Part shown: piece by piece, positions 16,892 through 33,317 of the stretch | Position numbering within the stretch: position 1 is the first letter of the stretch | Layout of the letters: every line of letters begins with the position of its first letter | Assembly (NCBI GenBank): GCA_947631905.1 | Contig: CANRND010000005.1 | Coordinates: 1 to 64,000 of the forward strand | DNA: 64,000 nt | DNA from: an uncultured Clostridia bacterium | Lineage (GTDB): Bacteria > Bacillota > Clostridia > Christensenellales > Borkfalkiaceae | Reading direction: 5' to 3' | Program-made: the position numbers and the translations under genes | The notes under the pieces: model-generated | The model's database searches: none | Seen by the model: only the letters and a program-made list of their open reading frames with translations | Told to the model about the DNA's origin: nothing

Positions 16892-17161
16892 TTACGCGCC
16901 GCCTTCGCGCATCCTGCGGAGGGCATACATCTTTTTCGTGGCGTCGCCGCCCCGAAGATGCCTTTCGCTCAAATTTTTATCCAGCACTTTCTGTACTTTT
17001 TTGAAAAGAGCGGGATCGAGACCGGGCAAGCGTTCGGTAACGTCTTTATGCACGGTGGATTTGCTCGTGCCGAAGTGCGCCGCGCATGTGCGGACCGTAC
17101 AGCCTGTCTTTGCAATGTATTCCCCGTTCCTGATCGTCCGCTCTTCGATATAATTCCACAT
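16892..17161 (-). CDS. spoIIID: Sporulation transcriptional regulator SpoIIID
   Basis: An 89-residue helix-turn-helix protein that acts in the mother cell during sporulation, repressing and activating SigE-dependent genes. It matches the family along its length: 'YIEERTIRNGEYI' at the N-terminus, HTH 'TVRTCAAHFGTSKSTVHKD' (residues 22-40), then 'ERLPGLDP' and 'LDKNLSERHLRGGDATKKMY'. ATG 17161 was chosen because AGAGG lies at the right distance; the TTG 9 nt earlier is too close to it. Its first 38 codons and promoter are duplicated almost exactly at 33123-33317, marking the two ends of the defence island. Confidence 0.96.
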   Translation of the reverse strand: MWNYIEERTIRNGEYIAKTGCTVRTCAAHFGTSKSTVHKDVTERLPGLDPALFKKVQKVLDKNLSERHLRGGDATKKMYALRRMREGGA

Positions 17162-17241
17162 AGAAAGCAACCTCTTTTCGTCAAAAAGTTACTTATATCT
17201 ATGTCGAAATAGTGCGAAATATCACCAAATTCCGCCGATCA
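17047..17241. repeat. 195-bp direct repeat, left copy (spoIIID promoter and 5' end)
   Basis: It aligns without gaps to 33123-33317 (constant offset 16,076). I count two mismatches in 195 positions, both inside the spoIIID coding part. It contains codons 1-38 of spoIIID, the ribosome binding site and the probable SigE promoter. Similarity ends abruptly on both sides, within the codon after 'STVH' and at GATCA near 17241. Confidence 0.95.
17196..17224 (-). promoter_or_regulatory. Probable SigE-type promoter of spoIIID
   Basis: On the minus strand, TGATATT (17224-17218), a 14-nt spacer and CATAGATA (17203-17196) resemble the SigE consensus (ATATT, 14-15 nt, CATAcA.T). No sigma-A-like pair is better placed. 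SigE control of spoIIID is established in Bacillus. The match here is inferred by eye. The identical sequence is present in the right-hand repeat. Confidence 0.55.
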
Positions 17242-17644
17242 TACAAAAACGGCGCACCCCTCTACGCGCCGTTGCTTCGTCGTTTCAATTGGTTGTCCTG
17301 ATCTTCATCCCCCCCCAAAATTCCCTCATCGGCATACAGGGTACGAGAGTGTTACGTTTGACTTTCTTGATACCCCCTCACTTGGTAGGCAAGTGAAAGG
17401 GGCAAAAATTAGCCATTCTCTAAAAAATTTCGCAAACTTTCACAAAAGAAAAATGCGTATACAACCGTATATGCACCTCTTATGTTTTACAAGACCGCCC
17501 TTGTTCGTTTCCGATGGAGACGATTGAGTCTTCTCCCGCTCATCATTCCGAGTCGCAGTGTATTTGGCAAAATTCACCTTCAATTTTGGTTCAAAAATTT
17601 TTGAAAATCAAAGTCGGTCAAGTCATTAGTTTTTTCTTTCACGG
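17242..17644. other. Gene-free left end of the island
   Basis: No ORF is supported here. There is a minus-strand terminator-like hairpin: AACGGCGC at 17248-17255 pairs with GCGCCGTT at 17266-17273 and is followed, reading minus, by TTTTG. It would shield the spoIIID promoter from island transcription. A second hairpin lies at about 17373-17401 (CCCC.CACTTG / CAAGTG..GGGG). The rest is unremarkable AT-rich sequence. Confidence 0.6.
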
Positions 17645-17890
17645 TTATAAGCATTTTTTACAGTCATACCTTCCAGAATAATCTATGGATTTCAAAAGCT
17701 CTTCCATGAAAGAAAGCTTTTGATTTACTTTATCGTATAAAATTGCTGTAGTCCGCGCAACAATAGGGTTTGCGGCAGTAACAACTTGAATTTGCAACGT
17801 GTTGTTTTTTTGCATTTCAATATCGCTCATATTTACAGCAATATTCAAGCCGCTAATACGACGGCGGAACTTCAAAAATTCCACCAGCAA
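17645..17890 (-). CDS. Small ORF of unknown function, possible remnant
   Basis: An 81-codon frame starting at TTG, with an in-frame ATG after 20 codons (MSDIEMQKNNTLQIQ). The C-terminus is 'YSGRYDCKKCL' with a CxxC. No convincing ribosome binding site precedes either start and no family is recognised. Its length and composition are protein-like, so it may be a real small island gene or the tail of a lost one. The position beyond hsdR at the island edge fits a decayed cargo gene. Confidence 0.3.
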   Translation of the reverse strand: MLVEFLKFRRRISGLNIAVNMSDIEMQKNNTLQIQVVTAANPIVARTTAILYDKVNQKLSFMEELLKSIDYSGRYDCKKCL

Positions 17891-18192
17891 TTGTCACTTG
17901 AAATGTATTTGAAAGCCACTTTAATTTAAAGCACGCATAGAAAATATTCAAAAAATCAAGAAAGTTAAAATGAAAGTGATGATGCAAATAACGCTTGTCA
18001 ATCTTATTGTTTTTTTCGCAGGTGTCATGAAAATATCCTTAAATTCTATGTTTATTGAATATAACACCTAAACCGCATATTTCAAACACGAGTAGCCGAA
18101 AGTTATTCTTACGGCTGCTCCTGTCAATATTTTTTTGCAGTAAGCAAATAGTTTGATTCAAAATGTTCGCCCTTATCGAAAAAAATATAATC
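17891..18192. other. Intergenic, downstream of hsdR
   Basis: AT-rich. A 33-codon plus-strand ORF at 17970-18071 (starts MKVMMQITLVNLIVFFAGVM) would encode a short hydrophobic peptide, but it lacks a good ribosome binding site and I do not call it. An imperfect hairpin near 18091-18121 (AGCCG/CGGCT arms) could end hsdR transcription, but it has no T-run. Confidence 0.4.
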
Positions 18193-21100
18193 TCACCCAA
18201 TTCCGAAGAAACGCTCGAAGAAGGCTTTGATTTTTTCGATTACGGTCGTCTTTTTCTTGGCGCGGTCGCCACCGCCGAAACGGGAAATCGGCGGCATAAG
18301 CCGATCAATATCCGTCCCTGTCGTGCGCACTTCCCCGTCGCGGAAAGCGTTTTCTATGAATTTCCTCGTCTCCTCGTCTTTCAAATTCTCCTCGGCAATG
18401 ATTTCCGCAAGTTGTTTTTCTTTCTCGGTGGCAACGTATTCATGCCACTCGTTCATTACGTCTGTGACTTCGGTGACGCCCGCGATAAAGCTCTCGATGA
18501 GCGCCTTTTTGCTACGAAGCTCGGGACTGGCGTCGATTGCCTTGCGAATGGTGACGAGAACCTCTTTATCTTGGCAATGGGTATCGTGATATTTTGTGAC
18601 GAGGAGCAGAATATAATCAATATTGATCTCAATTTGCTTGATGAGTTCGATTTCAAACACAATATCGTCGCTGATATCCTCTTTCTCACCGCGTGCCGCT
18701 TTTGCTTTCCACTCATCACGAAGGTCCTGATACCGTCCGCAGTAGTCCTGTAAATCGCGCTCGGAAAGGATGTCATCCTCTTTGAAATCATCGTAGCAGG
18801 TGAGAAGGTTACGCATCCGCAAAAACGCGCCAAAGAGGCGGATGAACTGCTTCTGCCGCTCTTCTCCCGTGATGCGCTCTTCTTCAAGCGGGAAGCCGTC
18901 CTGCAATTCGGAAACGAGGTCGATATATCCCTTATGATATTCTCCCTTATCATCCGTGTAGCCGTTGAGGTAATCTTTGTAACCGCGCATGAGAACAACA
19001 CCGCCCGCTTCTCTATCGCCAAACAAAGAGATCGCGTCGTCTGTACGCTTTTGTAAATTGCGGAAACAAACGATGTTCGCGAACGTCTTGATGGTGTTCA
19101 GAATGCGGTTGGTGCGGGAATACGCCTGCACGAGCCCGTGCATTTTGAGGTTTTTATCCACCCAAAGCGTGTTGAGGGTGGTCGCGTCGAAACCCGTGAG
19201 GAACATATTCACGACGATGAGAATGTCAATCTCCTTGTTCTTCATGCGAAGCGAAACATCTTTATAATAGTTAGGGAATTTCTCGCTCGACGTGTCATAG
19301 TTCGTGCCGAAGTGGGCGTTATATTCCTTGATGGCACGGTCGAGAAAATCGCGCGAGGAAGCGTCGAGCCCGTTCGTGTCGTCCGAATTTTCCTCGCCGA
19401 GAAGTCCGTCCTGCTCCTCCTCGTTGGGAGCAAAGCTGTAAATCGTAGCAACTTTGAGCTCCTTTCCGGGGTGCTCTTTCATCTGCTTTTGGAATTCGAG
19501 ATAATAGAGCTTTGCCGCCTCGATGGAAGAGACTGCAAAAATGGAATTGAATCCCTTCAACTGTACTTTGTTGCGAAGCTCCTGTGCGTCGCTTCCGCTC
19601 TTTGCGCGGGCGACTTCCTCTATATTCACGAGCTGGCGGAAAGCATACGATTTTTCGTTCTGCTTAGTCTTTTGCGCAAAGTGGTCGAGGATATATTCAA
19701 CAACTTTGGAAATGCGCTCAGGCGCGAGGAATGCTTTTTCGCGGTCGATGTCCCAAACCTCCTTGTCGTCGATTTCGGGCTCTTCTTTCATTGTGGAAAT
19801 ATAGTCCACGCGGAAGGGCAAAACATTTTTATCGTTGATGGCGTCCACGATGGTGTAGGTGTGAAGTTTCATGCCGAACGCCTGCTCGGTGGTGCGCATG
19901 GTAGGATTGCCCGACGAAAGCGCGTTGACGGAGAAGATCGGCGTTCCCGTAAAGCCGAAGAGGTAATATTTTTTGAAGAACTTGGTAATGGCGAGGTGCA
20001 TATCGCCGAATTGACTGCGATGACACTCGTCGAAGATGAGAACGACGTGCTTGTCCGAAACGGGATGTCCCGCGTTCTTCTTGATGAAGGTGGAGAGCTT
20101 TTGAATGGTCGTGATGATGATCTTCGCGCCGTTATCTTCGAGTTGACGTTTTAAGATTGCGGTGGAGGTATTGCTATTCGCCGCCCCTTTTTCAAAGCGG
20201 TCATATTCCTTCATAGTCTGATAGTCGAGGTCTTTCCTGTCCACGACGAAGAGCACCTTGTCAATGTAGTCGAGCCGCGAGGCGAGCTGTGCCGTTTTGA
20301 AGGAAGTGAGCGTCTTTCCGCTGCCCGTCGTGTGCCAAATGTAGCCACCCGCCTTCACACTCCCGAAAAGTTTGTAGTTTTTGGCGATTTGAATGCGCTC
20401 CAAAATCTTCTCGGTTGCGACAATTTGATAAGGGCGCATGACGAGGAGCATGTTCTCCGAGGTAAACACACAATAGCGTGTTAAAATGTTGAGGAGAGTA
20501 TGTTTTGCGAAAAAGGTCTTGGTGAAGTCCGTAAGGTCGGGAATGATTTTGTTCTTCGCGTCTGCCCAAAAGGAAGTGAACTCAAAGCTGTTGCTTGTCT
20601 TTCCCTTGCGTTGTGCGTTCTCCGCCTCTTTGATATGGTTGTAGCGCGTGGTGTTGGAGTAATATTTCGTATTTGTGCCGTTGGAGATGACGAAGATCTG
20701 CACATAGTCAAAGAGCCCGTTCGACGCCCAAAAGCTGTCGCGGGAATAGCGGTTGATCTGATTGAACGCTTCTCGGATAGCGACGCCGCGGCGTTTGAGT
20801 TCGATATGTACGAGGGGCAGACCGTTGACGAGAACGGTGACGTCGTAACGGTTTTCGCGGACGCCACGCGTCTCGGTGTATTGGTGGATGACCTGTAAAC
20901 GGTTGTTGTGGATGTTCTTCTTGTCGATGAGAAGAATATTTTTTGTCTCGCCGTTGTCGCGTCGAAGAATTTGCACGAAATCTTCTTGAATGCGGCGGGT
21001 CTTTTTCTCAATGTCGTCGTTCGCGCCCGCGATACAGTTCTTAAAAAACTGCTCCCATTCGCTGTCGGTGAACCCATAGTTGTTGAGAAGTTCAAGCTGT

Positions 21101-21294
21101 TTGCGAAGGTTGGGAATGAGCTCCTCTTCGGAGTGAATATTGAGATATTCATACCCCATGTCTCCCAAAAGGCGCAAGAATTCGCGCTCTAAGTCCGCCT
21201 CGCTCTGATAGGTTTCGGCGCGACGCTCCGAAGACTCATACTCCGCCACCACGGTAGACTCTGTGGATTGGGTGACAAGATTGAAATTATTCAT
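18193..21294 (-). CDS. hsdR: Type I restriction endonuclease subunit R (HsdR)
   Basis: The 1033-residue motor and nuclease subunit of a type I restriction-modification enzyme. It translocates and cuts DNA lacking the cognate methylation. The N-terminal nuclease has the D...ExK motif (Asp151, Glu165, Lys167 in 'VHIELKRRG'). The helicase core shows Walker A HTTGSGKT (321-328), 'IFDECHRSQFGD', 'FGFTGTPIF', and motif VI 'LVQAYSRTNRI'. The C-terminal helical region ends in a short basic tail. ATG 21294 was chosen for its AAGGAG site; it overlaps the hsdS stop as ATGA, so the subunits are translationally coupled. Confidence 0.96.
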   Translation of the reverse strand: MNNFNLVTQSTESTVVAEYESSERRAETYQSEADLEREFLRLLGDMGYEYLNIHSEEELIPNLRKQLELLNNYGFTDSEWEQFFKNCIAGANDDIEKKTRRIQEDFVQILRRDNGETKNILLIDKKNIHNNRLQVIHQYTETRGVRENRYDVTVLVNGLPLVHIELKRRGVAIREAFNQINRYSRDSFWASNGLFDYVQIFVISNGTNTKYYSNTTRYNHIKEAENAQRKGKTSNSFEFTSFWADAKNKIIPDLTDFTKTFFAKHTLLNILTRYCVFTSENMLLVMRPYQIVATEKILERIQIAKNYKLFGSVKAGGYIWHTTGSGKTLTSFKTAQLASRLDYIDKVLFVVDRKDLDYQTMKEYDRFEKGAANSNTSTAILKRQLEDNGAKIIITTIQKLSTFIKKNAGHPVSDKHVVLIFDECHRSQFGDMHLAITKFFKKYYLFGFTGTPIFSVNALSSGNPTMRTTEQAFGMKLHTYTIVDAINDKNVLPFRVDYISTMKEEPEIDDKEVWDIDREKAFLAPERISKVVEYILDHFAQKTKQNEKSYAFRQLVNIEEVARAKSGSDAQELRNKVQLKGFNSIFAVSSIEAAKLYYLEFQKQMKEHPGKELKVATIYSFAPNEEEQDGLLGEENSDDTNGLDASSRDFLDRAIKEYNAHFGTNYDTSSEKFPNYYKDVSLRMKNKEIDILIVVNMFLTGFDATTLNTLWVDKNLKMHGLVQAYSRTNRILNTIKTFANIVCFRNLQKRTDDAISLFGDREAGGVVLMRGYKDYLNGYTDDKGEYHKGYIDLVSELQDGFPLEEERITGEERQKQFIRLFGAFLRMRNLLTCYDDFKEDDILSERDLQDYCGRYQDLRDEWKAKAARGEKEDISDDIVFEIELIKQIEINIDYILLLVTKYHDTHCQDKEVLVTIRKAIDASPELRSKKALIESFIAGVTEVTDVMNEWHEYVATEKEKQLAEIIAEENLKDEETRKFIENAFRDGEVRTTGTDIDRLMPPISRFGGGDRAKKKTTVIEKIKAFFERFFGIG

Positions 21295-22502
21295 ACACAC
21301 TCCTTAAAAGACAACAGCTTGTCCCGATAGTATTCGTACTGTTTTTGTCTTGCTTCGATTTCGGCGGGGAGACCTTCCGTAGGATCGTTGCAAAGTTTAT
21401 CGAACTTGTCGAGCGTTTCCACAATTTTCCCCTGTACTTCGAGCGGCGGAATGGGAACAATCAGCTTTTTTAGATCGGTTTTATTAAATTTACATTGCCC
21501 ACCAGGAGAAGTAATTAACTTTAATTGCTTTTGAAACTGCTCGCACTGAAAAATATAGTATAGGTATTTATTATCTTCTTTTGAACTACGCAATAAAATT
21601 GCATTCGGACCAAGTGCGTTTTTTGGATATGGTAATTTCCGCGGATCAACATAATAAACCTCTCCACAGTTCCCAATATTGGGCATTATTATTGACGCTT
21701 CATCTAAATGTACTCGCCATAGATAATTATATGCTGTCTCAGCAATATACACAAAATCTTCATTCTTAAACTTCGATTTCAAATCCGTCGTACGAACTAA
21801 TTGCGCATAATCAGCATTTTGCAAATATTGTACATTCTTTTTTAAATCAGCAAAAGAACCCGCTGCAACGTAATCTGTTATGGTATCGCATATCTCTCCC
21901 AATTTCAACCACCTAACTTCGCACCCCTCATTCGATTTATCGAACGAGAGGAGTTTATCGCGATAACATTCGTACTGCTTGCGACGAGCGGCAAGCTCAT
22001 CTTCAAGCTCTGCTGACAATGATGTAAAATCGTCCAAAATGCGGACAATTTCGCATTGTACCGCCAAAGGTGGCAACGGAATTTGTAGATTACGAAAGTC
22101 CCCACCCGTCAATTTTGGAATATTTCCATGCACTAACGACGTAATATCTATGGTCTGTATATAGTGAAATAAATATCGAAGCGAAACTCCTTTTTTCGCT
22201 TGAATGATATGAGCATGATTATTTACCCAAATTTTCCCCGATGCCCACGTCACAATTGGATGCCCATTATTATCGATTACACTCCCATCTTCACCGACTA
22301 AAACAAACTCGCCGTCAAAAATATAGTCGTTTACATAATCTTGAATACCGTTTGCGCCATAATATGGATACTCTCCCAATGTTCTCGCCGACCGAGTTAT
22401 CGGCTTTCTTCTATTATCCAATATTTCGCAACACTTTTCAAGTAAAACCCGTTCCACCCCGTTCGGACACAATTCCTTTATCAATTCTTCAAGTTTTGTC
22501 AT
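21291..22502 (-). CDS. hsdS: Type I restriction-modification specificity subunit (HsdS)
   Basis: A 403-residue DNA-recognition subunit. There are two target-recognition domains of about 150-180 residues, each followed by a central or C-terminal helical spacer: 'LPPLAVQCEIVRILDDFTSLSAELEDELAARRKQYECYRDKLLSF' and 'IPPLEVQGKIVETLDKFDKLCNDPTEGLPAEIEARQKQYEYYRDKLLSF' (these are the paired repeats that set the half-site spacing). ATG 22502 follows GAGGTG; a start 18 nt earlier is less suitable. It is AT-richer than hsdM and hsdR, as is common for exchanged specificity genes. The target sequence cannot be predicted by eye. Confidence 0.94.
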   Translation of the reverse strand: MTKLEELIKELCPNGVERVLLEKCCEILDNRRKPITRSARTLGEYPYYGANGIQDYVNDYIFDGEFVLVGEDGSVIDNNGHPIVTWASGKIWVNNHAHIIQAKKGVSLRYLFHYIQTIDITSLVHGNIPKLTGGDFRNLQIPLPPLAVQCEIVRILDDFTSLSAELEDELAARRKQYECYRDKLLSFDKSNEGCEVRWLKLGEICDTITDYVAAGSFADLKKNVQYLQNADYAQLVRTTDLKSKFKNEDFVYIAETAYNYLWRVHLDEASIIMPNIGNCGEVYYVDPRKLPYPKNALGPNAILLRSSKEDNKYLYYIFQCEQFQKQLKLITSPGGQCKFNKTDLKKLIVPIPPLEVQGKIVETLDKFDKLCNDPTEGLPAEIEARQKQYEYYRDKLLSFKECV

Positions 22503-22510
22503 TATGCACC

Positions 22511-23281
22511 TCAATTCCATCCCAAAGCTCTTTTAGCATTCGAGAATTCTTCTCGATTTTTTACATTTTCCAAAATGCCAACCACCAATCGACGCAACGG
22601 TTGATATTTTTTCAAAGCATCCGTATCATTCATGCTTGCTCCATGGATAACATTGCTCAACTCTGAAAACAGTTTATAACCATTTGCTGAAAATTCAGGT
22701 GGAATAATAGAATTTTGTGCGTCGATATCTCGCAAAATATCAACAAATGGTCGGGAACTGCCATTTTTCTTTGTTGTTATTATGCCGAGCGACGTTGCGG
22801 TTTGTAATGTAATCGCTTCAAATGCTTTTCGCAAATAAACCAATGCGCCAGCCCCCAATTCATCTCGATATGCCACATCGGCTTTATCAAGAAATTTCGA
22901 TATGAAACCGTAAGAATCCATGCTGATCGCAACACTATCTGAAAGTTTTTCGCTTTTCTTCATAATGCGAACGCTCGGAGCAGGTAAAGTAATATCATCC
23001 ATACTTTCAACTAAAAACCATATCGGAACCGTAGCACCGCAAGAACAAGCCAACACACAGTCAATGCTTATCGTTTTTTTATCAATAAACATGCACGAAA
23101 ATTTATTCCTTGATCGAAACGTTCGGATATCATCACATGTCTTACAGAAATAATTAAGTGCGATATTCCCTACGGTAAGTTCAACTGTTTGCCCAGTATC
23201 TCCTTTCTTGTTTTGAAGAAACCCATCAACCTGAACGAAATCGAGCTTTGGCGGTTTAGATAAAATATCCCCTAATCTCAT
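22511..23281 (-). CDS. DUF4145-like protein with N-terminal Cys cluster, in hsd operon
   Basis: A 256-residue protein between hsdM and hsdS. The N-terminal half has FCKTC at about residues 45-49 and further Cys in 'DCVLACSCGA' at about 76-85, a likely zinc-binding module. The C-terminal half, 'GALVYLRKAFEAIT', 'SRPFVDILRDIDAQNSIIPPEF' and 'LFSELSNVIHGAS', has the helical pattern and the conserved Arg/Glu and His-Gly of DUF4145, a domain often found in restriction-modification loci. Function is not established; a regulatory or accessory restriction role is plausible. AAGGAG precedes ATG 23281. The gene ends 8 nt before hsdS and is therefore part of the operon. Confidence 0.7.
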   Translation of the reverse strand: MRLGDILSKPPKLDFVQVDGFLQNKKGDTGQTVELTVGNIALNYFCKTCDDIRTFRSRNKFSCMFIDKKTISIDCVLACSCGATVPIWFLVESMDDITLPAPSVRIMKKSEKLSDSVAISMDSYGFISKFLDKADVAYRDELGAGALVYLRKAFEAITLQTATSLGIITTKKNGSSRPFVDILRDIDAQNSIIPPEFSANGYKLFSELSNVIHGASMNDTDALKKYQPLRRLVVGILENVKNREEFSNAKRALGWN

Positions 23282-23307
23282 TTGTACTCCTTGCGTTAAT
23301 CAAAGCC

Positions 23308-24882
23308 TTACCCTTCAATTTCCGCGATGATTTTTTCGATTTCTTTGCGCAATACGTCCTCGCGGGCGACAATTTCGGCGATCTCCGCATTTAGTTTTTG
23401 AATATCCACCTTTTCGCGGGTGTCCTTTGGCTCCACATAGGTCGAAACGGAGAGGTTATAATTATGTTCCTCGTCGCCGATCACGCTGTTCGGAATCAGT
23501 TTTGCAAAATGTTCTTTATCTTCCCGCGCCTTGAACGCCTCTAAAATCGTATCGATATTCTCGTCGGTCAGCTTATTGTTGTTCGTCACCTTCACGAACT
23601 CATTCGAGGCGTCGATGAAGAGCACGGAGCTATCCTTCTTGCTCTTCTTCAAGACCATGATGCACGTTGAAATGCTCGCCCCGAAAAAGAGGTTCGCGGG
23701 GAGCTGGATAATACAGTCGATGAAGTTGTTATCGATGAGGTATTTGCGAATTTTCTGCTCCGCGCCGCCGCGGTACATGATACCCGGGAAACAGACGATT
23801 GCCGCCGTGCCGTTCGCCGCAAGCCAAGAGAGCGAGTGCATGATAAAGGCGAAGTCCGCCTTCGACTTGGGCGCAAGAATGCCCGCAGGAGAATAGCGGC
23901 TGTCGTTGATGAGGAGAGGATCGCCATCCCCCGCCCAAGGAATGGAATAGGGCGGATTGGAAACGATCACCTCAAAGGGTTCGTCGTCCCAATGTGCGGG
24001 CTCGGTGAGCGTGTCGCCGTGGGCAATGTCGAACTTGTCGGGCTCGATGTCGTGCAAGAACATATTGATGCGGCAGAGGTTGTAGGTGGTGATGTTGATC
24101 TCCTGCCCGAAAAAGCCTTGACGGATGTTTTCCCTGCCTAAGATCTTCGCCGCTTTCAAAAGGAGCGAACCCGATCCGCAGGCAGGGTCGTACACCTTGT
24201 TGACCTCGGTCTTTCCCACCGTTGCAAGTTTGGTGAGAAGCTCGGAGACCTCCTGCGGTGTGAAGAACTCGCCGCCCTTCTTGCCCGCGTTGGAGGCATA
24301 CATACTCATGAGATATTCATAGGCGTCGCCGAAAGCGTCGATGGTGCTATCTTGGTATTTTCCAAGCTGCATTTCCGCAACCGTGTCGAGGAGCTTTACG
24401 AGCTTTTCGTTGCGTTTTGCGACCGTCGCCCCGAGTTTGTTGGAGTTGACGTCGAAATCGTCGAACAAGCCTTTGAAATCGTCCTCGCTTGCGCTACCCT
24501 GCGCGGAAGTTTCAATATGATTAAAGACACGCTCGAGCGTTTCGTTGAGATTTTCATCCCGTGCGGCGCGCGCTCTTACGTTGCAAAACAGCTCGGACGG
24601 AAGGATGAAGAAACCCTTCTCCTGTACCAACCCCTCACGGGCGGACTCCGCTTCTTCATCGGACATCTTTGCGTAATTAAAGTCAAGATCGCCCGCATCG
24701 TGTTCGCCCTTGTTGATGTATTCCGTGATGTTCTCGGAAATGTAGCGGTAAAACATGGTGCCGAGGACATATTGCTTGAAGTCCCACGCGTCCACGCCGC
24801 CCGCATGGACGAGGTCGGTCGCCGCATTCCAAATCATCTTGTGCAGTTCCGCCCGTTCCTGTTCTTTTCTTGTATCTGCCAT
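23308..24882 (-). CDS. hsdM: Type I restriction-modification methyltransferase (HsdM)
   Basis: The 524-residue N6-adenine methyltransferase subunit. The helical N-terminal domain ('[24 protein letters not shown]') is followed by the SAM-binding motif '[14 protein letters not shown]' (about 231-244) and the catalytic NPPY (309-312). A C-terminal coiled tail contacts HsdS. It is the first gene of the operon hsdM, DUF4145-like, hsdS, hsdR. An extended -10 promoter and GGAGG ribosome binding site lie upstream. Full length and intact, so self-protection should be functional. Confidence 0.96.
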
Positions 24883-24904
24883 AAATTCCTCCTGTTGTAA
24901 TTTT

Positions 24905-24968: not shown

Positions 24969-26246
24969 TTATCTGTTCAAGCTGTCTTTGTCGAGCAGGA
25001 AATCGTACAGACCCATGTAGATGATACCCTTGTCGTCATAGCTTGCTTTTCTTCGCGAATCGGTGATGATGATCTTCTTGAAAAAGTCCTTCGTCGCAAG
25101 CAGAGGGCGGCGCTCCGCATTGATTTTTTCTTCGTCCCCCAACCGATACGCCGATTGAATATAATATCGTTCGGGTCCCATGTTGACCACAAAGTCGATC
25201 TCGCACTGCTTTTTCTTCCCCTCTTCGCTCACATCCACGACGCCGACGTCCACCGCATACCCGCGCGCGATCAGTTCGTTGAAGATGATATTCTCCATTG
25301 CATGGGTTTCTTCATCCTGTCGGAAGTTCAGCCGCGCATTTCTCAGTCCCATGTCGGTGCAATAGTACTTGGAGGGATAGGAAAAATACCGCTTGCCCTT
25401 CACATCGTACCTACTTGCATGGTAAAACAGAAACGCCTCTTCCAAATATTCAAGATACTTAGAAATGGTCTCGGAATTCACCTTCACCTTGCGCACGGTT
25501 TGGAGCGTGTTTGCGATCTTGTTAGAATTGACAAGCGAACCGACGGACGAGCAGAGATCATCGGTGAGCATCTTCATCGCCTCGGGAAGTTCAATGGTGT
25601 AGCGCTCCTCGATGTCCTTAAAGTAGGTCTCTTTGAACAGATCGGTGAGGTACTTCATCTTCCCCCTCGCGTCGGAAAGGGACAACGTAAACGGCAAGCC
25701 GCCGTATAGCGCATACTCCTCAAAGGCATCCGCCTTGTCGCCGCCCACAAAATCGAAATATTCTTTGAAGGTGAGCGGGAACACGCGCACCTCGTCGCCG
25801 CGCCCGCGGAACTCGGTCATGACATCCTTGGAAAGGAGCTTGGAATTGCTACCCGTCACATAGACGTCCACGTTGCCCAAATGCAAAAATCCGTTGAGAA
25901 CGCCATAGAGCGGCAACGGTTCTTCGCTCTTCAATTCCTCTTTTTTGATCGCATATTGAATTTCGTCGATAAAGACATAGTACATCTGCGATTTATCGGC
26001 GACTTTGGAAGTGACATATTCAGACAGTTTGAGCGGGTCTCTGTACGGCGCATTTTGAACGGCATCGAGGGCAAGCGTGATGATGTTCTCCTCTTTGACG
26101 CCGATAGAAAGCAGATAATTTCGATAAATTTCAAACAACAAATAGCTCTTGCCGCACCGTCTGATCCCCGTGATGACCTTGATCATTCCGTTTTCTTTTT
26201 TGGAAATCAGTTCCTGCAAGTAAAAATCTCTTTGAATGGTTTTCAT
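24969..26246 (-). CDS. AAA ATPase with DUF4143 domain
   Basis: A 425-residue AAA-superfamily ATPase. Walker A is 'TGIRRCGKSYLL' (about residues 24-35) and Walker B 'YYVFIDEIQYA'. The sensor region is 'VYVTGSNSKLL', followed by 'VFPLTFKEYFDF' and the C-terminal DUF4143 domain with 'KKKQCEIDFVVNMG', whose E..D pattern resembles a PD-(D/E)XK-like core. ATG 26246 is preceded by GGGAGG. These proteins are common, often horizontally acquired and found in defence islands; their biochemical role is unsettled. The promoter overlaps a strong inverted repeat, so expression is probably repressed by a DNA-binding protein or by the ATPase itself. Confidence 0.88.
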   Translation of the reverse strand: MKTIQRDFYLQELISKKENGMIKVITGIRRCGKSYLLFEIYRNYLLSIGVKEENIITLALDAVQNAPYRDPLKLSEYVTSKVADKSQMYYVFIDEIQYAIKKEELKSEEPLPLYGVLNGFLHLGNVDVYVTGSNSKLLSKDVMTEFRGRGDEVRVFPLTFKEYFDFVGGDKADAFEEYALYGGLPFTLSLSDARGKMKYLTDLFKETYFKDIEERYTIELPEAMKMLTDDLCSSVGSLVNSNKIANTLQTVRKVKVNSETISKYLEYLEEAFLFYHASRYDVKGKRYFSYPSKYYCTDMGLRNARLNFRQDEETHAMENIIFNELIARGYAVDVGVVDVSEEGKKKQCEIDFVVNMGPERYYIQSAYRLGDEEKINAERRPLLATKDFFKKIIITDSRRKASYDDKGIIYMGLYDFLLDKDSLNR

Positions 26247-26265
26247 GCAAATTGCCTCCCGCATA

Positions 26266-26301
26266 ATCGAAAGTTGCTCCGCAAATGGAGTAACTTTCGA
26301 T
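26266..26301. promoter_or_regulatory. Palindromic operator next to the AAA ATPase promoter
   Basis: ATCGAAAGTTGCTCC (26266-26280) faces GGAGTAACTTTCGAT (26287-26301): 15-nt arms with one mismatch and a 6-nt centre. It covers the expected transcription start (near 26298) just downstream of the -10 box, the position of a repressor roadblock or an mRNA hairpin upstream of the ribosome binding site. Confidence 0.65.
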
Positions 26302-26304
26302 AAT

Positions 26305-26333
26305 AGTATAGCATGAAATGACCCAAAAGTCAA
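26305..26333 (-). promoter_or_regulatory. Sigma-A promoter of the AAA ATPase gene
   Basis: On the minus strand, TTGACT (26333-26328), 17-nt spacer, TATACT (26310-26305). One mismatch per box. It is directly followed by the palindrome at 26266-26301. Confidence 0.8.
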
Positions 26334-26656
26334 TAGTGTTTCCCCTCTTTCTTGGCTGTTTTTGGAGCGGAACGCGGGGAATTTGCTTGCTTTCGGTCGA
26401 ATTATCCGAATTGATTATGAAAATTCCAAAAAATCGAAAGATGCCCCATGCGTGGAATATCTTTCGACAAATAAAAGAAATTCAAGGGAGAATTAGCGCA
26501 TTCGCGCAACTTTTTCAAGGGAGTTTTAGAAAAGTATAGAAATTTTTTCCAACGACTTTTGTCGAAAGTAAAAATTTATAAGCTGCGACTACACACAAAA
26601 AAGGAAGTCCCTCATATGAAACTTCCTCGATTGTCTCTAATATTAGTCCAAAGAAT
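26334..26656. other. Intergenic between the ATPase and the GHKL/helicase operon
   Basis: Apart from the terminator at 26602-26627, I see no gene. A minus-strand frame at 26515-26715 overlaps the end of the GHKL gene in another frame and is not supported. Confidence 0.5.
26602..26627 (-). terminator. Terminator of the helicase-GHKL operon
   Basis: AGGAAGT (26602-26608) pairs with ACTTCCT (26621-26627). Reading minus, the stem is followed by TTTTTTGTG. It lies 30 nt beyond the stop of the GHKL ATPase gene. Confidence 0.65.
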
Positions 26657-29600
26657 TTACTGCCGATCTTCGGTTTCCATTGCTTTAAGTTTGCGTATTG
26701 CGACTTGCAACGCAAGTAAATGTTTCGGCGTAAATCTTATTGTAGCTGACTTCCCTTCAAGCTGTATAGGTATATCGAAAAATGCACTTTGAGCAGCATT
26801 AACATCTATACTCTCTACTTGTTGGATCAGTCCGCTTATAGTAATTTGACTATATTTGAATTTAGCTGCACAATTTGGACAAAGCGATAAAGTATTCCAA
26901 CCAAGGTCTATTTTGATCTGTTGTGACTCCATAAGCTCTCCCGTATTAAAAATATTTATAGCTTCGAAATAACGTTTCCCCTTTGCCGTTAAAATTCCTT
27001 CGTTGCTACAAATTTGGCAATGCGCCTTATACTCGTTCCTGACAAATTCTTTCTCTTCATTATTCGGTTTTTCCAATACGAAACGTAGCTTTTTTATCGT
27101 TGTCGTAGGCTGTTCCCTGTCATCAAATTCTTTCTCAAGCTTTATTTTGCGCTTATCGAGATTCTTCGGGCCATGAAAAAAGCCATAATTGTCATCGTCA
27201 TCTTCTTCTGGAAGTTGTTCTCTATCGGAAGTTGCTACCATTTCAGATAATGATTTGCCCGTTTTTCGTTTTTGTTCTTGCATTAGCAATGCCATTGCAA
27301 GAGCTTTTTCTCGCACATCCGAGTCAAGCCTAGCAAATTTATTAAGGTTTTCATCATTGATACCACTATTTTTTAACTGTTCGACAAGGTCGTTTGGTTT
27401 TATGGATATTTCGCTTAACAAAACGGACGGGGTGTCATATCTAAAATCATCAAGCAAATCATCTTCTGTCAGTTCATATGGAAATTTATATACGCCGCTT
27501 CTTGTGGGTACCCATGCAGTACGCTTTAAATAGTAAACAAGGGTAGATTCAAATATCTGAAAAGATCTGCGATTATTTGCTCGATATTTTGTATATAGCC
27601 AATTTTCGTTATTACATTTCAGAACAAATTGCCAAAGCATCCGCGCTACATCGATAAGATTATTTTCTTTAATTTTCTTTAATTTATTCCAATCAAATTG
27701 GTCTATCGTATACGTTTGCTCAATACATGTATCATACCGTTCCCCGCTTCTATCTATCTTGCCGCATAAGGGGAATGGATATTGCAAATTATTTGACTTT
27801 ACAACTTGCGGATAGACTTTCCCATATAATTTAATGAATATTTCTTGTAAAATATCTTGCGGGATGTCACGATTGGCCTTTTTATACTCATTGAGCGCAA
27901 GTATATAATGCGTATCGCAAAAAAAGAATGCCGAACAGCTATCCCAACAGCAGTTGCACGCCTGGGTTATACGAATATCCCCGTCGTCATTTGTCGCTAT
28001 AAAGATAGGGGTAACTACAAGATCGTTAATGTTGATAGCTCCTGATTGATAACCATTGACAATTTCCATCATCTTAAGAATCATATCGTCTACGGAAATT
28101 TTATCGCCTGAAATATCTGCGATAAGATCTTCCCGTTCGCACATTTCCTTGACCCCAAGAGACAGCAGAAGTTCTTTTATGTTTCTGTCCTGGGTAATGT
28201 TTTTCAAAGAAATCTCAACATAAATCGGATTCTTCAAGTGATGTTTCGGTTGATAGCTTGTTCTTAAATAAATCCCATCATATGGCTTATGTAGCCTTCC
28301 ATCCTCGCACTTAATGCACGCAACTTCACGGATAATCTCATTGCGCGTTTTTGGTACGTGAAAAGAACCGGAATAAAAGCTGTATCCTAATCTTTCTTTT
28401 GCCTGCGAAAGCAAATAATAAAGTGTTTTGAAATATTCTGTTTTTTGTTTAACGAATAATACATTGAAAAAGTTGGGATTTTTCTCCAAAGAATCAATAA
28501 ACTCTTCAATTGTAAATTCCTTTATTTTAAATTGATCAATGAAAAATTCAGTCCGTGACGCAGGCATAAATCTCGGCAACCAACTCTTTTGGTAATAGGT
28601 TTCCACTTCATCGGAGGGTAAAATAATTTTAATATCATTGCTTGCCCACATTACATCCCTACTCCGAAGATATTCGCCGCGCTCTGTAACAAACAAATTA
28701 TCGGATTCAAATGCTTGCTGTATTTTATCTGCAAAAATTTTGTAACGAGAATCTCCGTTATTTGAAAAATCACGATGAGTCGGGAGCGCATCGTATACGG
28801 AATAATTTAAAAGATTCACACCTCTGAAATAATATAGAGATTCTACAGACAAATCGGCAAGAGCTTCTATCAATTTGCTGTTTTCGTCGCAGTATCTTAT
28901 GTTATCGCGCGCAACGGTCGAAGCAAAAGGAGCATTGATATGAAAACGCAAATCGCTTTTTTGATCCGTAGGGAAAAAGATGCATACCTTTCCTGTCACA
29001 TTGCTGTCTACTTCAAATTTATTGTCTTGTAGAAGTTTCATTTTATATGCAATGGAAACCACATTCTCTTTTAACCGCCCCTCAACCATTAAAGGACACC
29101 GACCAATAAATTTGCTCCAATACGATACGCTTTCCGCAATTTCCGAAGCCTTCTTCACGCGAATCTCATAAATAAATTTTACAGATGTCGTCTCTTCATT
29201 GATTTGTATATAACCTTTTGACCCATTCGGTAATTCGTAATTAATTTTTTTGATATGATTTAAGAATAAAATTGCCGTTTCGTCTAATCCGCAAAGGCCT
29301 TCGGTAATTTCATCGATTGCTTTCTCAGGTGACTTATCTGCACTATCAAAAGGGAATATAAACTTGGTCAAGCCTTTTTGCGCCTGCCTTTCTATTTCCT
29401 CATCTTCCGGTACCAACATATCCACGATCTTGAAGCAATGCTCCCCAGAATACACTTCAGGAGTAGAGGAATAGGCATATACGGCTTTAAATCCAACGCC
29501 AAACTGTCCAATCGCAGTCGGATCATCTCTTTTTGTTCCCTTGCTGATGTTGGTAATCGCTTCTACATCTTCTAACGTAAAATCACGCTTATCGCCATTA

Positions 29601-29818
29601 TGTATAAAAATCAATTTGTCATTAAAAAGACGAAATCGAACTGCCGAAGCATTCATGTCTTCAGCATTTTGCAAGAGTTCGAAAATGAAATGAGCTTTGT
29701 CCGGATATAATTCGGTAAGTAAATTCTTGATTCCGTCAAAGGCATCATTTTCTTTCATACTTTTGACCATTTCTTTTCTTTTGCTCTTCAGCTCTTCAAA
29801 TGTAGCGAATTTACTCAT
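26657..29818 (-). CDS. Large sacsin-like GHKL ATPase with C-terminal four-Cys (HNH-like) module
   Basis: A 1053-residue protein. The N-terminal Bergerat-fold ATPase of the sacsin/Hsp90-like type shows the N box 'FELLQNAEDMNAS' (47-58), 'IFIHNGDKRDFT' (about 68-79) and the lid motif 'IGQFGVGFKAVYAYS' (about 103-117). A long unassigned middle follows. The last 150 residues have 'AHCQICSNEGILTAKG' and 'LSLCPNCAAKFKYS', a CxxC...CxxC frame laid out like an HNH domain, but the usual catalytic His positions read Ile/Asn. ATG 29818 (GGAGGG upstream) lies 1 nt after the helicase stop, so the two are coupled. Its place in a defence island and its helicase partner suggest anti-phage function; no named system is assigned. 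Confidence 0.78.
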   Translation of the reverse strand: MSKFATFEELKSKRKEMVKSMKENDAFDGIKNLLTELYPDKAHFIFELLQNAEDMNASAVRFRLFNDKLIFIHNGDKRDFTLEDVEAITNISKGTKRDDPTAIGQFGVGFKAVYAYSSTPEVYSGEHCFKIVDMLVPEDEEIERQAQKGLTKFIFPFDSADKSPEKAIDEITEGLCGLDETAILFLNHIKKINYELPNGSKGYIQINEETTSVKFIYEIRVKKASEIAESVSYWSKFIGRCPLMVEGRLKENVVSIAYKMKLLQDNKFEVDSNVTGKVCIFFPTDQKSDLRFHINAPFASTVARDNIRYCDENSKLIEALADLSVESLYYFRGVNLLNYSVYDALPTHRDFSNNGDSRYKIFADKIQQAFESDNLFVTERGEYLRSRDVMWASNDIKIILPSDEVETYYQKSWLPRFMPASRTEFFIDQFKIKEFTIEEFIDSLEKNPNFFNVLFVKQKTEYFKTLYYLLSQAKERLGYSFYSGSFHVPKTRNEIIREVACIKCEDGRLHKPYDGIYLRTSYQPKHHLKNPIYVEISLKNITQDRNIKELLLSLGVKEMCEREDLIADISGDKISVDDMILKMMEIVNGYQSGAININDLVVTPIFIATNDDGDIRITQACNCCWDSCSAFFFCDTHYILALNEYKKANRDIPQDILQEIFIKLYGKVYPQVVKSNNLQYPFPLCGKIDRSGERYDTCIEQTYTIDQFDWNKLKKIKENNLIDVARMLWQFVLKCNNENWLYTKYRANNRRSFQIFESTLVYYLKRTAWVPTRSGVYKFPYELTEDDLLDDFRYDTPSVLLSEISIKPNDLVEQLKNSGINDENLNKFARLDSDVREKALAMALLMQEQKRKTGKSLSEMVATSDREQLPEEDDDDNYGFFHGPKNLDKRKIKLEKEFDDREQPTTTIKKLRFVLEKPNNEEKEFVRNEYKAHCQICSNEGILTAKGKRYFEAINIFNTGELMESQQIKIDLGWNTLSLCPNCAAKFKYSQITISGLIQQVESIDVNAAQSAFFDIPIQLEGKSATIRFTPKHLLALQVAIRKLKAMETEDRQ

Positions 29819-29819
29819 T

Positions 29820-32800
29820 TTATCCCTCCACTCGTAAAATCCCAACCGCCAATTTCGTTGCTACGATATCGCATTTTTCAATTTCGGAATTCAATTGCTG
29901 TTGCTTTTCCCTAAATGATTGCTCCAAACGCTCCAACTGCGCCTGTTTCATCTTGATGATCTTGGCATCTGTCGCTTTTGACAATACGTTTTCGATTGCC
30001 TTGATTTGTCCCTGCTGGCTTGTGACCAGGCTACTCATTTTGAATTTTATCAGTTGTTCCGATTCGCCGATATATTTTTCCTTTGCCTCTTTCCACGCCG
30101 CAAAATGAATATTTTCCAACCTACCTTCTTCGATGGCATGCGTGCTTTCGTAATCCTGCGCATGGTAGATAAGCTCCAACATGGTTTTTGTATCGATTTG
30201 TTGTTCCGCAACGATCTTCAATTCGCAGTTTGGCTTTATACCTTTGTACTGCCACTCATAGGCAATAAAAGGATATTCTCCCCGCGGCAATTTGTCTGTT
30301 TTCACGGTCAAAGAGCATTGCACGGGATCGTCGCTAAAATAACGTATAGCTTGTTTCACAAGTGGATGCGTCGGCATAATGAATGTTATATTCCTATGTT
30401 CGGTTGCATATTCCCCGTCAAAAGTAATTTTTTCAAACGGCGTTTGTTCATTCAGATATTTCTCCCATGCTTTGTATACGGGATTAATTTGCCTGTCCAA
30501 TTCACGGAAGTCTTTCAACAGAATGTTTCTATTTTCCTCTTTCAGCCGCAAAGTTCGTTCGGCTCCGTTCCCGAGAATATATTGATTATCCTCACCCAAA
30601 CGCTTTTCAAGATATGTTTCTATAAGTCGGCAAATTGCGTCGGCGCTTAAGTGAATATTGGTCGCGTCTTGCAATTCTTTTCTCATCATTTCTTGACTCA
30701 AATCTAACCCGAAAAATGCTTTTGTATCCTCCTCCAAGCGCTGTTGTTCTTGCATCTTCCGAATGGCGTTGTCGGCGATTTGCAAGTCTTTTTTTGCCCG
30801 CTCCTGCGGGTTCAGAATGTAATTTTCAACTACGTCATAGATCTCGCGCGTAACTTCGCCCAAAATCTCCTCACTGTCGCCGATGGAAGAATTGAATACA
30901 CCGATACGCGCCAGACAGCGGTCATAAATATCGCAATCGATTGTGCCTTCCGTTATGATATTGATGATGGAAACACTCTCGCTTTTTTGCCCGTTTCGGT
31001 CGATACGTCCGATGCGTTGCTCAATCGTTTGGGGATTCCAGGGCAAATCATAGTTTATCAGGCAATCACAAAATTGGTAGTCCAAGCCCTCGCAACCCAC
31101 CTCGGAAAACAACATAACATCCAAAGATTCTTCTTGCTCTCTATCCGCTTTGAACCGATTGCGCAGGGCAACCCGCTCATCATCCTTCACTCCCCCATGG
31201 ATGACACCAACGCGGATATTTTGTGCGGACAACTTATCATACAAATATTTCAAAGTATGTCTAAAACTGCTGAACACCATTACTTTGTTGTTCTGCATGG
31301 TTTGCTTTTCTTGAATAACTCTGATAAGCTCCTCGACTTTTGTATCCTCATCGCTCATTGTCTCCGCAGAGGCAAGCAAACGCTTGACCGCCTCTTTGAT
31401 CTGCGGTTTGGAAAGAAAATCGGCCGTCTCGTTCAATGACGCATTTTCCGCATCGTCAAGTTCAAGCCCGAGCTCATCAAATCTTCTTGTTAAAATTTCT
31501 TCAAGGAAAGGGCGTAACCCGAAAATACAGCTTGCCGCCTGCCGCATGATTGTCGTCATCATAAACCGCAGGCCCCAATCTCCATGAAGTTGAATTAAGA
31601 TATTTGCCTGTATCCGCAACAACTCGTTATAAAGAGCGGCTTGATCTTCCGTAAACGAAACCTTTAATGTTTCGGGCTTTCTGACCGTAAAATCGCCGAT
31701 ATCGCGTCTACGAGTACGATTTATGATCGATGCGAAGGTGTGTAAGCTCTCGACATTCGTAATCAGCTTTACACGTTCCTCGGCCGAAATGTTATCTTGC
31801 CTCAGGGTTCGAATTGCATTGAGATAGACGGGATTTGTAACAATATTCGCCCCACACGATGTCTTTCCGACAGCAATTAACCTCGAAAGAGCTTCGTTCT
31901 GCCAATTTTCTTCGTTGCTCCGGATTAGCCTGACTGCCTCATTGATAAGCGGGTTCGGCTCCCCCATACGGACAAAACTCTCGTAATCGTAAATCAAATC
32001 GGGGCGTAAAAGATTCAGCAATGTATACAAATCCCTGTCACCGAGTTGCATCGGTGTAGCCGTAAGCATCACGACACTCGTGGCATTCTCGCAGAACAAC
32101 TGCACCGCTTGATGCGCATAAGTATTGGGATTCTTGATATGATGTGCCTCGTCGACTATTACCAAATCAAACTTGGGAAACGGATTTAAATCCGCCAACG
32201 ACTTTTTATTGATTTTTATCGCGCCGCCGTCTTTTGTCCCGTTAACGGTCGCTTCATCAAACAAGGAATAAGGGATAATACACTTGGAATAATCGTCGGG
32301 CCACTCCTCTTCAAGAGAAGCTTCGTGGATGCAATAGCGCAGTTTCTCCCCGTCTATGTGAACAAACTTCTCTCCGAATTTATCTTTTAGCTCTCCTTGC
32401 CATTTTCGTTCCGTAATGAGAGGGCGCGGGCAAATTACGAGTACGGATTTGATATCAAAACGCGCCTCCATTTCTTTCAGAATAAGTCCGGCTTCGATCG
32501 TTTTACCGACACCTACGCCGTCGGCAATTAAAATGCGCGGACTTTCGGACTTAATAAGTTTCAATATGGGACGATATTGGTACGGTATAAAATCTATCTT
32601 TGCGGAATTGAGCGAATATAACGAATTGATATTGGGGCTGCGCAGTAATTTTGCCGTGAAAAGCGAATTGACATCTTGCGCGGAATACCAAAGATATCCG
32701 TTATCGATGCAATACGGCTCTATTTGCTCTTCAAAACAAGCTATTTTTTTGCCATCCGCCAAAACGATATATCTTGTGACATCGCCGTTTTCCTCAACCG

Positions 32801-32864
32801 AAACGACAGCGCCCACCTTACCATCATGCTTGATTTTAACCGTATCACCCGCTTTGAATATCAT
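29820..32864 (-). CDS. SNF2/RapA-type helicase, first gene of a two-gene defence-like operon
   Basis: A 1014-residue superfamily 2 DNA translocase. A small beta-rich N-terminal domain (1-60, 'FKAGDTVKIKHDGKVGAVV') precedes Walker A 'ADGVGVGKTIEAG' (114-126), the DEAH box (238-241), 'LTATPMQLG' (267-275) and the second RecA domain with 'VFSSFRHTLKY', 'EVGCEGLDYQFCDCLINYDLPWNP' and motif VI QRIGRIDR (616-623). The C-terminal 350 residues are helical and charged. The domain order resembles RapA and DISARM DrmD helicases, but the drmA, drmB and drmC genes are absent. ATG 32864 follows GGAG/AAGG. It is transcribed first and tightly coupled to the GHKL ATPase gene. Confidence 0.85.
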   Translation of the reverse strand: MIFKAGDTVKIKHDGKVGAVVSVEENGDVTRYIVLADGKKIACFEEQIEPYCIDNGYLWYSAQDVNSLFTAKLLRSPNINSLYSLNSAKIDFIPYQYRPILKLIKSESPRILIADGVGVGKTIEAGLILKEMEARFDIKSVLVICPRPLITERKWQGELKDKFGEKFVHIDGEKLRYCIHEASLEEEWPDDYSKCIIPYSLFDEATVNGTKDGGAIKINKKSLADLNPFPKFDLVIVDEAHHIKNPNTYAHQAVQLFCENATSVVMLTATPMQLGDRDLYTLLNLLRPDLIYDYESFVRMGEPNPLINEAVRLIRSNEENWQNEALSRLIAVGKTSCGANIVTNPVYLNAIRTLRQDNISAEERVKLITNVESLHTFASIINRTRRRDIGDFTVRKPETLKVSFTEDQAALYNELLRIQANILIQLHGDWGLRFMMTTIMRQAASCIFGLRPFLEEILTRRFDELGLELDDAENASLNETADFLSKPQIKEAVKRLLASAETMSDEDTKVEELIRVIQEKQTMQNNKVMVFSSFRHTLKYLYDKLSAQNIRVGVIHGGVKDDERVALRNRFKADREQEESLDVMLFSEVGCEGLDYQFCDCLINYDLPWNPQTIEQRIGRIDRNGQKSESVSIINIITEGTIDCDIYDRCLARIGVFNSSIGDSEEILGEVTREIYDVVENYILNPQERAKKDLQIADNAIRKMQEQQRLEEDTKAFFGLDLSQEMMRKELQDATNIHLSADAICRLIETYLEKRLGEDNQYILGNGAERTLRLKEENRNILLKDFRELDRQINPVYKAWEKYLNEQTPFEKITFDGEYATEHRNITFIMPTHPLVKQAIRYFSDDPVQCSLTVKTDKLPRGEYPFIAYEWQYKGIKPNCELKIVAEQQIDTKTMLELIYHAQDYESTHAIEEGRLENIHFAAWKEAKEKYIGESEQLIKFKMSSLVTSQQGQIKAIENVLSKATDAKIIKMKQAQLERLEQSFREKQQQLNSEIEKCDIVATKLAVGILRVEG

Positions 32865-32897
32865 ATAACCTTACTCCGCACTAAAATATTCGCTTTT

Positions 32898-32906
32898 ATT
32901 ATAGCA
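32898..32906 (-). promoter_or_regulatory. Extended -10 promoter element of the helicase-GHKL operon
   Basis: On the minus strand TGCTATAAT followed by AAAAG, about 35 nt before the helicase ATG. No good -35 at standard spacing. It is almost identical to the element before hsdM. Confidence 0.5.
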
Positions 32907-33027
32907 AAAACCAACGCAAATGTATAGTGTTTTGTGCCAAAGACGTTCCATATCGATTGTTTCTTTTCGGACTTGCTATCTAATTGAATTTCTGTTTTTA
33001 CCTCCCTCCCATACAATTCTAAACATG

Positions 33028-33072
33028 AAAAAAGCACTAATCTCGAAAGCAATTCGAGATTAGTGCTTTTTT
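33028..33072. terminator. Strong bidirectional terminator at the island's right end
   Basis: Arms 33028-33047 and 33053-33072 form a perfect 20-bp stem (AAAAAAGCAC... to ...GTGCTTTTTT) with a 5-nt loop and built-in A and T runs. It separates the helicase promoter region from the truncated spoIIID copy. Reading minus, it would also stop transcription coming from the right. Confidence 0.85.
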
Positions 33073-33084
33073 GCTCCTTTTATT

Positions 33085-33237
33085 CTACCACCCACACAAA
33101 ACGTTCGGTAATGTTCCCTCTATATGCACGGTGGATTTGCTCGTGCCGAAGTGCGCCGCGCACGTGCGGACCGTACAGCCTGTTTTTGCAATGTATTCCC
33201 CGTTCCTGATCGTCCGCTCTTCGATATAATTCCACAT
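33085..33237 (-). pseudogene. Truncated spoIIID copy (codons 1-38) at the right island boundary
   Basis: ATG 33237 opens a 50-codon frame whose first 38 codons are identical in protein to SpoIIID up to 'TSKSTVH'. It then reads IEGTLPNVLCGW and stops at 33085-33087. The recognition helix of the HTH is cut near its middle and the basic C-terminus is lost, so it should not act as SpoIIID. Ribosome binding site and SigE-like promoter are intact, so a short peptide could still be made in the mother cell. Confidence 0.85.
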
Positions 33238-33317
33238 AGAAAGCAACCTCTTTTCGTCAAAAAGTTACTTATATCTATGTCGAAATAGTGCGAAATATCA
33301 CCAAATTCCGCCGATCA
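33123..33317. repeat. 195-bp direct repeat, right copy (spoIIID 5' end and promoter)
   Basis: Partner of 17047-17241, same orientation, two mismatches. Beyond 33317 the sequence is the intergenic region and terminator of the sugar-transporter operon, which could be the ancestral upstream neighbour of spoIIID. Confidence 0.95.

Follow-up and report, generated by a model that had tools for sequence, protein, structure and literature searches.

The AT-rich island of defence genes next to spoIIID in the window, by which we mean the whole stretch of 64,000 nucleotides analysed here, is best explained as the stranded remnant of a serine-integrase element that targets spoIIID and whose target gene was later rebuilt, a reading to which we assign a probability of roughly 0.82. 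The insertion by a large serine recombinase (LSR) is well supported, since the same crossover core and attL arm occur in 15 genomes of the genus, LSR genes lie at the rear halves of split spoIIID genes and the halves can be rejoined to open frames; the later restoration of the gene is a step that we infer.

In the window, 195 nt at 17047-17241 recur at 33123-33317 in direct orientation and without gaps, with two mismatches at positions 17087 and 17108. The ungapped repeat extends to 199 nt with three mismatches, and a gapped alignment of both copies shares 214 nt, of which 209 are identical. Our realignment thus bears out the repeat described in the first-pass annotation including its boundary at 17047, which is exact and represents the first base of a recombination core: both copies share TATG at 17047-17050 and 33123-33126 (CATA on the minus strand) and diverge at 17046/33122. 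There is no third copy, the repeat probe matching these two places only in the whole draft genome (1.99 Mb, 58 contigs). Copy 1 is part of an intact spoIIID, and copy 2 codes for the front half of the protein only, up to ...SKSTVH, after which other sequence follows:

16892..17170, minus strand: intact spoIIID, 92 aa from a TTG start (ATG at 17161), PF12116 with E 4.2e-32
17047..17241, minus strand: repeat copy 1, the front of the intact spoIIID and its promoter region, with the core CATA at 17047-17050
33123..33317, minus strand: repeat copy 2, the original promoter and front half of spoIIID, truncated at the core (CATA, 33123-33126)
33099..33129, minus strand: attL, spoIIID up to ...GTGCAT and then the conserved element arm ATAGAGGGAACATTACCGAACG; the attL pattern matches at 33111-33129 with 0 mismatches

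The claim of an insertion into spoIIID therefore holds, in that copy 2 is cut at the CATA core and followed by an attL arm, and relatives are split at the same place. The coding region of spoIIID is not itself interrupted in the window, which harbors the intact gene plus the front-half fragment.

The island had also been described as AT-richer than its flanks, which agrees with a GC content of 43.5% (17242-33098) compared to 56.5% in about 10 kb on each side. The genes of the island and the two native neighbours are, with cargo assignments from Pfam/PADLOC where no other source is named:

13874..16819, minus strand: acyl-CoA dehydratase activase-like gene, native left neighbour, downstream of spoIIID (TIGR00241, E 9e-71)
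18193..21300, minus strand: HsdR, type I restriction subunit
21291..22520, minus strand: HsdS, type I specificity subunit
22511..23281, minus strand: 256-aa protein, no family match in Pfam, PADLOC or NCBIfam
23308..24882, minus strand: HsdM, type I methyltransferase
24969..26333, minus strand: AAA_14/DUF4143 ATPase
26657..29845, minus strand: sacsin-domain protein, TmtA-like (PADLOC TmtA, E 2.8e-55; PF25794)
29820..32864, minus strand: SNF2 helicase, DrmD-like (PADLOC DrmD, E 1.2e-117; NF038317 at 323 bits, under the NCBIfam DrmD cut-off of 610)
33432..35126, minus strand: GPH-type sugar transporter, native right neighbour (TIGR00792, E 1.4e-39, under its cut-off)

The window contains no recombinase gene, the genome's ten PF07508 matches all being located on other contigs, and neither a tRNA nor an RNA family was found in it (Rfam at gathering threshold). 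The LSR of the spoIIID elements was also sought elsewhere in the window genome, with no match at E 1e-60. The AAA_14/DUF4143 gene is 95-98% identical to genes located 2-4 kb inside attL of G007 and G041, which have a split spoIIID, and of G012, in which the gene is restored; the other six cargo proteins of the window had no comparably close match in the loci compared. On the native side, a long open reading frame homologous to the left neighbour comes after the spoIIID rear half in G041, G006, G020, G074 and G096. When 103 genomes were searched with the native right flank, all transporter matches in the genomes listed were on a different contig from spoIIID, so that an empty site of the window's species was not seen among them.

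A SpoIIID profile search in the 101 genomes of the genus set (G-numbers) gave 90 genomes above the cut-off, which sorted into 72 with an intact gene, 15 with a split gene and no intact copy found (G006, G007, G020, G021, G030, G031, G034, G041, G050, G052, G053, G063, G085, G096 and G100) and three in which a contig ends or begins at the core (G032, G074 and G093). Since several of the split genomes are incomplete (63-99% in the set), an unassembled intact copy is possible in individual split genomes. A spoIIID DNA probe matched 76 of the 101 genomes, with several partial copies breaking at one common point. Six of the 72 intact genes are accompanied by a front-half fragment with attL, as in the window, whose genome is among them (G000, G005, G012, G045, G048 and G062). 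Together with nine fragments of split genes, the fragments of these six restored genomes continue past the core into like sequence, CATAYAGAGGNAACATT or a close variant (in G031 and G030, among others), and this conserved stretch represents an attL. The attL pattern matched 20 of the 101 genomes, of which we retained the 15 with the match at a SpoIIID fragment; the matches in G015, G033, G064, G089 and G091 were dropped, as they lie on contigs other than that of spoIIID, with G064 lacking any SpoIIID match, and those in G064 and G089 were additionally inspected by eye.

When the two halves were rejoined in silico at the core, an open SpoIIID frame resulted in nine cases (L169, L171, L176, L188, L228, G041, G006, G030 and L229; L-numbers denote loci), and for G007, the tenth case, no join was obtained. 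In the latter genome (L083:8320-8400), the attR core is CACAA, not CATAA, and the attL core is CATA, so that the cores are mismatched. In G032, the end of the contig with the joined site (L133) is identical over 77 nt to the start of another contig (L134) at the core, which fits a mix of empty and occupied sites, excision not being proven thereby; the attR arm was not found in G032 with the pattern used. Contigs that end 76-77 nt beyond the core or start at it (L133/L134 in G032, the end of L135 in G093 and the start of L048 in G074) would be expected if the assembly had branched between empty and occupied sites.

The recombinase of the relatives is an LSR (523 aa in G041) with Resolvase, Recombinase and zinc-ribbon domains. 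In G041 its gene lies at the spoIIID rear half in such a way that its stop codon is formed by the CATAA of spoIIID; in G007, with its core CACAA, the LSR frame runs through. The LSR lies directly against the rear half in seven of the 15 split genomes; the contig ends at the junction in G030 and G100, and the rear half is unassembled in several others. Matches to the LSR at E 1e-60 or better occur in nine of the 101 genomes, seven of them at an identity of at least 67%, and all seven have a split spoIIID; the remaining two are a stump in G077 and a match of 33% in G075, on a contig other than that of spoIIID. The LSRs of G006, G007, G020, G034 and G041 are 96-98% identical, far closer than the spoIIID genes of these genomes, which suggests a recent transfer between species. 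LSR relatives in phage and plasmid records were below 60% identity at all best places, and among solved structures two catalytic-domain relatives were found.

The association of LSR and spoIIID extends beyond the genus. Considering the best 80 of 199 relatives, which were obtained by a scan of public genome contigs, a spoIIID rear half lies at most 150 nt from the aligned LSR end in 76 of the 80 loci (tblastn). Among the four exceptions, L155 ends six bases beyond the LSR yet shows the core, and L170, L182 and L196 have other sequence there. L182 and L196 carry a CATAT core just past the LSR homologue and no spoIIID rear half, perhaps representing another integration site or an unintegrated form. 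For 17 of the 80 loci we searched the whole genome for SpoIIID and found both halves and no full-length match in 15, with the halves on one contig and about 5 to 21 kb apart in 13 of these; of the other two genomes, [Ruminococcus] torques ATCC 27756 gave the rear half only and Christensenella sp. Marseille-P2438 no match. Eight of ten chosen cargo proteins from five public loci match models of defence genes, namely type I and II methyltransferases, type I specificity and restriction subunits and AbiL-like proteins, and two do not, numbers that give no census because the proteins were picked as defence-looking. The Pfam scan of the public-locus cargo added an XcyI-type endonuclease.

Four of the seven viral contigs found (L230-L233, IMG/VR contigs of 50-119 kb) encode an LSR at 62% identity, behind which lies an intact attP with inverted-repeat arms flanking the core, and carry no spoIIID; these contigs appear to be phage-like relatives of the spoIIID elements. 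An element of this family would be expected to have attL and attR with a common core, derived from an attP with inverted-repeat arms, and of these features the window retains attL and the core and lacks attR. These findings also bear on the first of two options in the first-pass annotation, according to which the element brought its own replacement promoter and front half, as tRNA-gene islands do, and spoIIID was never broken. Such an insertion would leave the anatomy now seen in the window. We nevertheless consider it very unlikely and rejected it, since 15 genomes have a split gene with no intact copy found and the four free attPs carry no spoIIID front half, i.e. the gene end does not travel with the element; furthermore, the two copies match within a genome and not across species in five of six cases, and a relic of the LSR is found in the window where the LSR-attR end is expected.

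This relic was found by nucleotide alignment only, a tblastn search of the window for an LSR remnant giving nothing useful (best E 3.1). We aligned five LSR genes with the upstream region of each of the 72 intact spoIIID genes, three of these regions being shorter than 500 nt, and four genomes stood out, namely G077 (score 928), G009 (493), G098 (121) and that of the window (57), with the next score at 37. In the window, two collinear stretches are concerned:

17313..17353, minus strand: relic of the LSR gene (LSR nt 105-147), 41 nt, 37 of 42 alignment columns identical, score 57
17355..17440, minus strand: second relic, matching element DNA located 1273-1360 nt upstream of the LSR in G007; lenient score 40 compared to at most 22 in 30 shuffles, with one template only

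Compared to the score of 57, none of 72 opposite-strand controls exceeded 36, and no other chunk of the window scored above 35. All four genomes retain 5' sequence of the LSR and lack its 3' end, which is the end that would abut attR; the stumps of G077, G009 and G098 are longer than the relic of the window, and a front-half fragment was not found in these three by the SpoIIID profile search. Upstream of the intact gene, G048, G045 and, weakly, G005 retain the element DNA that immediately precedes the LSR, but no LSR. G012 showed neither LSR nor LSR-upstream relics, and in G062 the upstream sequence comprises only 171 nt. In G009, G048, G045 and G005, the restored spoIIID is separated from the LSR-side DNA by a 284-aa gene, which we take to be GIY-YIG/DUF4357-like and which is 89-91% identical across species (L017:504-1355, L033:863-1711, L035:10481-11329 and L043:15916-16767); a partial copy of 76% (L257:418-834) lies upstream of the intact spoIIID in G025.

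From these results we conclude that the statement of the first-pass annotation that no integrase is present and the mechanism therefore open is half right: a recombinase gene is indeed lacking, but the mechanism is not open as far as the insertion is concerned, as an LSR family inserts at this site and has left a relic in the window. The LSR relic or stumps in four genomes and the cargo gene shared at 95-98% identity are further points in favour of a stranded LSR element. An insertion by long target duplication, with no site-specific recombinase involved, as described for restriction-modification genes of Helicobacter pylori, resembles the window in its restriction genes between long direct repeats, and the absence of a recombinase gene would suit it. 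Both junctions are plain target repeats in that concept, with no element-specific att sites and no recombinase relic, whereas in the window the repeat of copy 2 ends at a core common to 15 genomes and continues into a conserved attL arm, and the border at copy 1 has LSR-element relics. We thus rejected this route as extremely improbable. An assembly artefact at the 195-bp repeat might be suspected in a draft genome of 58 contigs, the more so as the other five genomes have their two copies on different contigs. However, a copy cut at the crossover core is not what misjoining would produce, and the attL arm on one side and the LSR relic on the other represent the asymmetry that is expected biologically and repeated in independent genomes, making an artefact very unlikely.

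Where the second front half came from is indicated by comparing the copies. Their identity within a genome is 209/214 in the window, 186/192 in G048, 191/197 in G045, 177/177 in G062, 217/224 in G012 and 169/199 in G005, i.e. 97-100% in five of the six restored genomes, compared to 66-88% between the aligned spoIIID DNA of other species and that of the window. Because the copies match within genomes and not across species in these five, the duplicate is likely home-made, that is, derived from the same species. Of the two options offered earlier, target duplication is thus favoured over a replacement 5' end carried by the element, the attP of the four phage-like relatives also lacking the front half. 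That the event was recent is not established by the high identity, since gene conversion between the repeats could keep the copies alike. The duplicate has an upstream end that varies between genomes, lying 56 to 109 nt ahead of the first aligned codon.

Based on these observations we propose the following history. In a first step, the LSR would have recombined attP with an attB in spoIIID at the codons STVH|KD, using the CATA core, as deduced from the anatomy of the relatives, to give the order promoter and front half, attL, cargo, LSR, attR and rear half. In a second step, most of the LSR, attR and the rear-half junction were lost, an outcome visible in the window, and a near-identical second front half with promoter, presumably from an uninterrupted conspecific spoIIID, would have been joined on. 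The likeliest route would be a one-sided homologous recombination with a sister or conspecific chromosome bearing an empty site, starting in the rear half and ending by illegitimate joining inside the LSR region. The product would be an intact spoIIID behind its own promoter region, with a dead front-half fragment at attL as a scar, and selection for sporulation would favour such repaired cells. As no attR is left, excision by an LSR is closed in the window, and precise excision would no longer restore one open reading frame from it; the defence cargo would not be movable by its own LSR anymore, while it could still be deleted by RecA acting on the two 195-bp repeats.

A different order of events, in which promoter and spoIIID were first duplicated in tandem, the LSR element then inserted into the upstream copy, and LSR, rear half and duplication joint were deleted afterwards, would lead to an identical final anatomy and has the LSR insertion in common with the proposed history. 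It is unlikely, as it requires more steps, no tandem spoIIID duplicate free of an element was seen among the 90 genomes with SpoIIID above the cut-off, and restored genes with differing junctions occur in several species. The proposed history, i.e. insertion by the LSR followed by rebuilding with a second front half, also has points against it. The LSR relic of the window is short (41 nt), the linkage of fragment and intact gene is seen in the window only, the two being on separate contigs in the other five restored genomes, the copies of G005 are just 169/199 identical, and the relic is weak in G005 and absent in G012. Moreover, it leaves unexplained why the duplicate ends nearer to the promoter than random end points suggest and why four genomes share the GIY-YIG/DUF4357-like gene at the junction.

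Mobile elements in sporulation genes have been described, and the comparison with skin in the first-pass annotation was apt, given that the spoIIID of relatives is split by LSR elements. The skin element splits sigK in Bacillus subtilis and Clostridioides difficile (PMC5025042, PMC6957869); it is likewise an LSR element in a mother-cell regulator, and the LSR gene of C. difficile directly precedes the 3' half of sigK, as is the case for spoIIID in the relatives. The target gene differs, and regulated excision with a directionality factor has been shown for skin, whereas excision of the spoIIID elements is a prediction. In the window, of a recombinase of its own only the LSR relic is left. A further parallel is gin, the gerE-intervening element of Bacillus cereus ATCC10987, a non-phage, AT-rich element with a restriction/modification system and serine recombinases (PMC5595907). 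It is, similarly, an island in a small gene of a mother-cell transcription factor, and its excision rebuilds gerE; it differs by the gerE target, its three recombinases and the excision shown in sporulation (PMC5595907), as opposed to spoIIID and one LSR in the relatives; the window has lost this LSR, and its spoIIID was rebuilt without excision. SPbeta in spsM, vfbin in spoVFB, the yin element in yabG and phi12-5 in kamA (PMC6957869, PMC10747680) are likewise mobile elements in sporulation genes with other targets, and the available sections of these papers describe no restored and stranded form. For the proposed restoration step, homology-facilitated illegitimate recombination offers a parallel, in that one end is joined through homology and the other illegitimately; it is described for incoming DNA in competent bacteria and for E. 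coli conjugation, and not for the repair of a split sporulation gene (PMC3240628). The sporulation-gene targets described in the accessible literature are sigK, spsM, spoVFB, spoVR, gerE, kamA and yabG (PMC6957869, PMC5595907, PMC10747680, PMC5025042), and no report of spoIIID as an insertion target was found in the open-licence literature searched. As far as these sources go, we thus describe a skin-like element family with a previously unreported target, together with a stranded derivative in which the gene was rebuilt.

The window genome has SpoIVA-type matches at two places, and a working spoIIID therefore likely matters to this host. In the relatives, the elements would be expected to excise during sporulation. 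More broadly, and at about even odds, spoIIID may be a standing dock in gut Clostridia for LSR-borne, often defence-carrying elements, the gene being split in many commensals, where it would have to be rebuilt by excision in the mother cell and thus act as a recombination switch upstream of sigmaK; hosts would repeatedly escape by gaining a second front half and losing the LSR while keeping the defence genes, and the window would be one such escape. It would exemplify a route from a mobile defence island to a fixed chromosomal one, in which, after loss of the recombinase and repair of the interrupted gene, a gene fragment remains as a scar, with no integrase beside it. Gut commensals available in culture, with members of Blautia, Extibacter, Schaedlerella, Agathobaculum and other genera, have split copies of spoIIID, an early mother-cell regulator; both halves share a contig in Schaedlerella arabinosiphila DSM 106076, Extibacter muris DSM 28560, Blautia massiliensis GD8 and Agathobaculum butyriciproducens DSM 100391. 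The splitting could bear on when or whether such commensals sporulate.

Two further features of the element borders were observed. A strong hairpin with T-runs on both sides is located at 33027-33072, just inside attL, and hairpins of differing sequence follow attL in other genomes as well, as judged by eye. In addition, L216 carries two spoIIID rear halves about 2.5 kb apart (2226-2366 and 4840-4998), each behind a different att-like arm, and possibly represents two elements in tandem at one site.
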